Shown piece by piece: positions 174 through 497 of a stretch of DNA of 22,577 nt; within the stretch, counting starts at the first letter, position 1; the number at the start of each line of letters is the position of its first letter. This DNA is from a virus, in IMG/VR virus record IMGVR_UViG_3300017770_002232, positions 1 through 22,577 of that record; one strand, given 5' to 3'. The translations under genes were made by a program, and so were the position numbers. The notes beneath the pieces were generated by a model. It saw only the letters and a list, made by a program, of their open reading frames with translations, did no database searches and was not told where the DNA came from.

Positions 174-181
174 TCATAGAT

Positions 182-205
182 AGGGGCGGCTTTATTGCCG
201 CCCTT
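182..205 (+). terminator. GC-rich hairpin, probable terminator after hsp20
   Basis: GGGCGGC (184-190) pairs perfectly with GCCGCCC (197-203) across the loop TTTATT, and A182-T205 and G183-T204 extend the stem to 9 pairs. It is by far the most GC-rich spot in this part of the window. Only a short TT follows rather than a long T-run, so it may stop transcription poorly or serve mainly to stabilise the upstream mRNA's 3' end. Confidence 0.55.
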
Positions 206-206
206 G

Positions 207-214
207 TATAAATA
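207..214 (+). promoter_or_regulatory. T4-type late promoter TATAAATA
   Basis: This is an exact match to the T4 late -10 element read by gp55, with no -35 needed. It begins two bases after the hsp20 hairpin. The expected start site, around 220-222, coincides with the 5' edge of the riboswitch, so the RNA element would sit at the very start of the late transcript. Confidence 0.75.
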
Positions 215-221
215 ATTATAT

Positions 222-270
222 CGTTTATCCTGAAACGGACGGAAGTAAACCACAAAGGTTGAAGAAACGC
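222..270 (+). promoter_or_regulatory. Glutamine riboswitch, Downstream-peptide type
   Basis: The stretch matches the conserved core of the glnA/Downstream-peptide glutamine aptamers as I recall it: a 5' CGTTTATCC, a central GGACGGAAGTA (237-247), and a 3' GGTTGAAGAAACGC (257-270). Pairings: P1 CGTTT 222-226 with AAACG 265-269; a short stem TCC 228-230 with GGA 237-239; and AACC 248-251 with GGTT 257-260 around ACAAA. The ribosome-binding site AAGGAG (278-283) and a 51-codon gene follow at once, the arrangement that names this RNA class. CGTTT can alternatively pair with AAACG 233-237, which would break P1, so a two-state switch is visible. Known examples of the class occur in cyanobacteria and marine phages. 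Control of the peptide by glutamine is inferred from the class. Confidence 0.85.
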
Positions 271-288
271 TCTTAACAAGGAGTTAGT

Positions 289-444
289 ATGGACTTAATT
301 AAAGACCTACGAGCTTTACGAAAAGAGAAAAGTAAATCTGAATCGTCTAAAGCTCAATTAAGAAAAAGAAGTAAAGATAGTATTGCTAGACCTAAAGCAA
401 AAACTAATCTATTTTCTAAAGACCCTCGTATGCAGGGAATTTAG
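289..444 (+). CDS. Small basic protein downstream of the glutamine riboswitch (51 aa)
   Basis: This is a 51-residue protein with a good ribosome-binding site (AAGGAG 278-283, five bases before the ATG). It begins MDLIKDLRALRKEK, is rich in Lys, Arg and Ser throughout, and ends LFSKDPRMQGI. No signal peptide, membrane segment or Cys is present, and I do not recognise the family. Its place directly after a Downstream-peptide type riboswitch makes it the 'downstream peptide' of that RNA. In cyanobacteria such peptides include inhibitory factors of glutamine synthetase that are short and highly basic. A role in controlling host nitrogen assimilation is therefore a reasonable but unproven idea. 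A host-type promoter begins four bases after the stop. Confidence 0.75.
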   Translation: MDLIKDLRALRKEKSKSESSKAQLRKRSKDSIARPKAKTNLFSKDPRMQGI

Positions 445-489: not shown

Positions 490-497
490 TATAAATA
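490..497 (+). promoter_or_regulatory. T4-type late promoter TATAAATA before peroxiredoxin gene
   Basis: Exact late -10 element. Transcription would begin near 503-506, so the 11-bp hairpin at 514-547 would form at the 5' end of the late message. The flanking bases (TGTATAAATAATTATA) are the same as at the late promoter at 207-214. Confidence 0.72.

Follow-up and report, generated by a model that had tools for sequence, protein, structure and literature searches.

A late promoter, a type-1 glutamine aptamer and a conserved small gene form a candidate glutamine-responsive cassette in marine T4-like phages

Is late gene output metered by host glutamine in phages of nitrogen-poor seas? The question is raised, in a form that can be tested, by a locus at positions 207-444 of a viral DNA of 22,577 nucleotides (IMG/VR record IMGVR_UViG_3300017770_002232), the whole of which is referred to here as the window. 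The source virus is probably a T4-like phage with SAR11 (Pelagibacter) as host. At this locus the initial annotation had placed a late-promoter box, the P1 helix, core and GAAG segment of a glutamine aptamer, and a small open reading frame (ORF), and we found every one of these elements at those places.

A scan of the whole window against Rfam 15 identified RF01739, the glutamine riboswitch of glnA type (type 1), at 220-273 on the plus strand, with 49.8 bits and an E-value of 2.2e-8. The match covers the full length of the model (1-53), lies above the gathering cut-off of 35 bits and is the sole one in the window to pass its family's gathering score. The locus had been described as belonging to the Downstream-peptide/glnA riboswitches, with a covariance-model search as the proposed check; this search upheld the glnA part and removed the other, since the Downstream-peptide class (RF01704) stayed below its gathering score in the window and gave no match even at E≤1 on positions 1-1200. 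The aptamer comprises P1 (222-226/265-269), P2 (228-230/237-239) and P3 (248-251/257-260), all on the plus strand, and the conserved core CGGAAGTA (240-247) and GAAG (261-264) can be read directly from the sequence. In an alignment of 37 viral sequences the three stems of the junction show compensatory changes on both sides, with 100% of the cells paired in P1, 100% in P2 and 88% in P3. By sequence and predicted structure the aptamer is assigned to the type-1/glnA class, and by analogy with its members the 220-273 RNA is expected to bind glutamine.

Immediately upstream stands the T4-type late promoter box TATAAATA (207-214, plus strand). The spacing between late boxes and start sites is well established for T4, and from it transcription is predicted to begin at about 220, the 5' edge of the aptamer, as the initial annotation had proposed; the aptamer would thus be the 5' end of the message. 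The position of the box is shared widely among viruses. From 248 unique viral aptamers with intact P1, the upstream sequence was scored in 246, and TAAATA was found no more than 40 nt upstream of P1 in 145 of them, mostly 5-10 nt away, compared with 2.5% of random windows. Grouped by the peptide family encoded downstream, the box is present in 71/73 members of the window family, 20/20 of a family with a GTSGY motif and 10/10 of a 78-aa family, and is rarer before short peptides of 26-47 aa (25/61) and DUF4278-like YRG peptides (4/45), although these absolute proportions are no unbiased census because the loci were gathered partly by the aptamer pattern. In the complete genome of the Pelagibacter phage Mosig, a copy of TATAAATA, exact or with one base changed, stands before gp22, gp21 and the portal, sheath, neck and tail fibre genes, as well as gp8, gp25, gp4, gp48, gp2 and the peptide gene, and genes for a late sigma factor and a late-promoter accessory protein are annotated. 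Its placement at the aptamer edge and the use of the same box for structural genes in Mosig identify 207-214 as a late promoter of T4 type.

The gene that follows the aptamer (289-444, plus strand, ATG at 289) encodes a basic peptide of 51 aa with a pI of 10.8 and the C-terminal signature RP[KR]..NxxSxDPR[LM]QxI. Relatives were detected in 285 candidate viral stretches, 80 of which were retrieved. Among distinct coding sequences sharing the N terminus of the peptide, the median dN/dS is 0.20 and third positions are the most variable; the ORF, which had been noted as a small basic protein, is a genuine conserved gene under purifying selection. Homologs are present in four isolated Pelagibacter phages (Mosig, HTVC103P, HTVC104P and HTVC023P). 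A second, distant type, MNYRDFE...RPRCEKNILSDDPRLQKI (RDF), matches HTVC023P by tblastn with an E-value of 1e-5 and the other three phages more weakly, and on this similarity we regard it as homologous to the window type. Among 33 members, ten alignment columns are invariant, and half of these fall within the last 18 residues. In the AlphaFold2 model (pLDDT 82, pTM 0.40) residues 3-33 form a lone helix and the tail is loose. Searches of Pfam, PHROG, NCBIfam and the PDB returned no credible match, with none in Pfam even at E≤10, including DUF4278 (PF14105), the YRG-motif domain; the best PDB match, the geminin coiled coil (E 0.05), was not considered credible. A search of genome contigs with the single peptide gave three matches, apparently phage DNA in draft assemblies. 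The peptide is a conserved, very basic and, as predicted, mostly helical protein with an invariant C-terminal tail, and it probably binds a single conserved target in phage or host.

To describe the linkage between these parts, distinct loci having 100 nt of upstream sequence were counted. For the window type (MDL) the aptamer lies directly upstream of the gene in 42/42 loci, for the RDF type in 27/27 and for the MNF type in 4/5. It is found in 0/17 of the MNL type, homologs in other pelagiphages, and Rfam confirmed this absence in representatives. Among the loci with an aptamer, TAAATA stands 4-14 nt before P1 in all 42 of the MDL type, 25/27 of the RDF type and 4/4 of the MNF type. As this order of late box, aptamer and gene is shared by 42 of 42 distinct relatives, the arrangement is not due to chance. 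The cassette is flanked by many different combinations of neighbouring genes, which indicates that the linkage is not inherited synteny and that the unit behaves as a portable cassette. In the RDF type the cassette lies near the major capsid gene of another T4-like lineage; a cyanophage origin of this type was discarded, since the capsid protein does not group RDF phages with cyanophages. The existence of homologs without a riboswitch might suggest a relic, or a fortuitous match, with no regulatory role. Against a score of 49.8 bits, an association without exception in 42 distinct loci and compensatory changes in P1, P2, P3 and P4, the fortuitous version is already refuted and the whole reading retains a negligible probability.

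How the aptamer could act on the gene is suggested by a hairpin, P4 (270-283, plus strand; 270-274/279-283), that begins at the base immediately following P1 and covers the Shine-Dalgarno (SD) sequence AAGGAG (278-283). Across families, the five bases 3' of P1 complement the ribosome-binding segment in different letters (CACTT/AAGTG, CACCT/GGGTG, CATCT/AGATG, CAATC/GATTG and CTCTT/AGGAG). In 84 distinct sequences the stem score of this hairpin is 10.9, compared with 7.9 ± 0.27 when the arms are exchanged (maximum 8.8 in 2000 permutations), and 93% of them form at least four pairs. In the 37-sequence alignment, 94.2% of the cells in P1-P4 are paired, against 80.1% after shuffling and 31-52% after sliding, and both-sided changes occur in 84 cells against 20 when shuffled; the P4 count is conservative, because this alignment sets the P4 arms of the window subfamily out of register. 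The covariation support for P4 comes mainly from other families, because the CTCTT arm of the window subfamily complements any AAGGAG and because the hairpin is absent in four divergent relatives of the window cassette (L040, L044, L045 and L054). In two of these four, a second CGTT beside the start codon offers a possible pairing partner for the 3' strand of P1. Transcription attenuation was rejected, since nothing resembling a terminator lies between the aptamer and the start codon (within 1-1200 a single terminator-like site was called, on the minus strand at 509-484), and for the same reason translational control is most likely.

Folding of 220-309 placed the SD in the hairpin in 79% of the free ensemble; imposing the aptamer lowered this to 69%, and imposing an alternative hairpin, CGTTT 222-226 with AAACG 233-237, raised it to 88%, P4 gaining the pair G269-U284 in the last case. 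In the energy models the SD is mostly paired whether the RNA is free or has the aptamer imposed (mean unpaired 0.26 and 0.31, respectively), so that the predicted gain in opening is small; secondary-structure energies leave the bound ligand out of account. Of 78 viral cases, 63 have a T or C directly 3' of P4 that could form a pair with the final G of P1, which indicates that P1 and P4 compete for that G.

We consider it likely that the locus is a self-contained T4-like late cassette, composed of late promoter, type-1 glutamine riboswitch, SD hairpin and one small gene, which operates as a glutamine-ON translational switch; the aptamer identity, the promoter position, the pairing and covariation of P4 and the conserved link to the gene were all observed in this analysis. 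Late in infection, a gp55-type sigma complex would initiate RNA at about 220 and the aptamer would be transcribed first. When glutamine is scarce, the 5' strand of P1 would be available for other pairings, and P4, lengthened by G269-U284, would keep AAGGAG closed. When glutamine is bound, P1 would form and capture G269, P4 would loosen and the 51-aa peptide would be translated. The folding shift is consistent with this order of events, though the computed change is small. The ON direction is probable by comparison with those cyanobacterial switches of type 1 and type 2 that have been tested, since the tested glutamine riboswitches covered by a review (PMC6316151) raise expression with glutamine. 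The opposite sign has a limited chance of being correct: P4 begins directly after P1 and the two helices are fully compatible, so glutamine-bound P1 might stack on P4 end to end and stabilise the closed SD, with peptide made only at low glutamine. Both the behaviour of the tested riboswitches and the competition for the last G of P1 in 63 of the 78 cases speak for the ON switch instead.

The initial annotation had proposed another switch, in which CGTTT 222-226 chooses between AAACG 265-269 and AAACG 233-237. Part of this proposal holds, as the alternative hairpin is populated to 41% in the predicted ligand-free ensemble, where it would leave P4 extended, and AAAYG is retained in every CGTTT-P1 variant of the window peptide type. 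The hairpin shows no covariation across the class, however (55.8% of the cells pair, against 54.7% when shuffled), and relatives of the same type with CGTTG in P1 have no CAACG in P2; the AAAC of the hairpin reads as a GAAA-like P2 loop. We therefore judge the two-hairpin switch improbable and prefer competition of P1 and P4 for G269.

What the peptide does was approached through known systems. The Synechocystis gifB leader (RF01739) shares the secondary structure and core of the aptamer and also precedes the gene of a small basic protein; the present element differs in being viral, probably from a phage of an alphaproteobacterium, in its T4-type late promoter, in having almost no 5' leader and in encoding an unrelated peptide. 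This likeness recommends the idea that the peptide, produced at high glutamine, inactivates glutamine synthetase as IF7/IF17 do in cyanobacteria: the logic would be that of gifB, a glutamine riboswitch ahead of a small, very basic protein (pI 10.8; PMC6316151), and other riboswitch-linked phage peptides resemble DUF4278, the domain of the IF17 N terminus (S-CREM1, with its YRG motif). The resemblance to such inhibitors, raised in the initial annotation together with a search for homologs of the inactivating factors, found no support in comparisons with Pfam, PHROG and NCBIfam families and PDB structures; moreover, homologs in riboswitch-free cassettes adjoin DNA polymerase or endolysin genes. 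We regard an inactivator as decidedly doubtful. Downstream-peptide RNA (RF01704, type 2) is likewise a leader of small ORFs, 17-100 aa long and uncharacterised in cyanobacteria (PMC2864571), and differs from the present RNA in family, as RF01704 has no match here; both RNA classes and their small ORFs were described by Weinberg 2010.

Several elements of the cassette can be recognised in published phages. Glutamine riboswitches were reported in pelagiphage Mosig and methylophage Melnitz (Buchholz 2022, PMC9004378), and Mosig carries the window cassette, with an aptamer 98% identical and a peptide 72% identical; the sections of that paper available to us give no description of the late promoter, the SD hairpin or the peptide family. 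glnA RNAs are annotated in cyanophages such as S-CREM1 (PMC9964418), which has the same RNA class in a T4-like phage with a small ORF next to it; its peptide differs in having the YRG motif of the DUF4278-like family, which is rarely under a late box (4/45). Zaragoza-Solas 2020 (PMC7029224) reported neither riboswitches nor recognisable late promoters in pelagimyophages, a statement that our data qualify. Within the portions of the literature at hand, we found no earlier account that brings the late box, the SD hairpin and the peptide family together in a single conserved unit.

A second statement to be qualified, from PMC9004378, is the discussion of the Melnitz switch as controlling ssrA. 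In Melnitz (MZ577097, locus L489) the permuted tmRNA is followed by the aptamer (46398-46446, 52.8 bits), and immediately 3' of the aptamer comes a 32-aa ORF missing from the annotation (46469-46567, MTLYQQWCYLKAQKEYRRRQKILMYFRIRLKG), which has an SD hairpin; the CDS annotated there (46492-46593) is on the opposite strand. The ORF resembles one riboswitch-linked peptide family and accounts better for the aptamer position, and the riboswitch therefore probably controls this ORF, not ssrA.

Aptamers of the same class were also found in bacteria. In a SAR11-like order, a 1.2-Mb member has strong SAM-V matches, one of them before a metY-like gene, which we take to be a Pelagibacter arrangement; on these grounds the order is probably Pelagibacterales. 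The aptamer is present in two of its 297 genomes (L483 and L484), where the gene that follows encodes a 70-aa protein with the GTSGY motif; this protein is similar to riboswitch-linked phage peptides and, weakly, to many Pelagibacter podophage proteins. The window peptide had no match among those 297 genomes in a search run without a positive control. In two other alphaproteobacterial orders the aptamer is present in 12/28 and 23/32 genomes, preceding glnA (Pfam Gln-synt_N), an ammonium-transporter-like gene and a circularly permuted ATP-grasp gene (L455, L457-L459, L461, L462 and L464-L467). In one alphaproteobacterial genome of 1.6 Mb (G190; L463, L468-L473), glutamine-synthetase-like and ammonium-transporter-like genes are preceded by a total of eight glutamine aptamers, many of them arranged in tandem. 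The alphaproteobacterial matches indicate that type-1 glutamine riboswitches are not confined to cyanobacteria, contrary to a 2018 review (PMC6316151).

Many marine phages share the arrangement, and late viral gene output may thus be tied to the nitrogen state of the cell; the conserved order of late box, aptamer and minigene provides a defined element for assay. As a speculation to which we give a low probability, marine T4-like phages could have in common a mobile late module whose several unrelated small basic effectors are translated under the control of glutamine and are directed at host nitrogen metabolism or at the timing of lysis or packaging. If so, the late viral programme would read nitrogen status directly and, given that a few bacteria of a SAR11-like order have the riboswitch with a peptide from one of these families, phage and host would exchange both effectors and switch.

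Tandem glutamine aptamers occur in the viral contigs L093, L126, L127, L145, L150, L163, L185 and L393, and share one downstream small ORF where the ORF falls inside the locus. Peptide homologs free of a riboswitch lie directly after an apparent DNA polymerase gene in other pelagiphage-like contigs, and in HTVC023P one lies two genes ahead of an endolysin (L205, L068 and L085 for these loci together). In the window, a strong GC-rich, terminator-like hairpin (180-207, plus strand; -21.5 kcal/mol and z -5.8 in folding) is located 3' of the hsp20 gene and may insulate the cassette from upstream transcription, its role as a terminator being putative because the T tract is short. A second late box TATAAATA (490-497, plus strand) lies outside the cassette, adjoining a sigma70-like site (448-476), and marks the downstream neighbour, a peroxiredoxin gene (574-1128) that has both sites of its own. 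The 22.6-kb window contains only three copies of TATAAATA, at 207, 490 and 17037.
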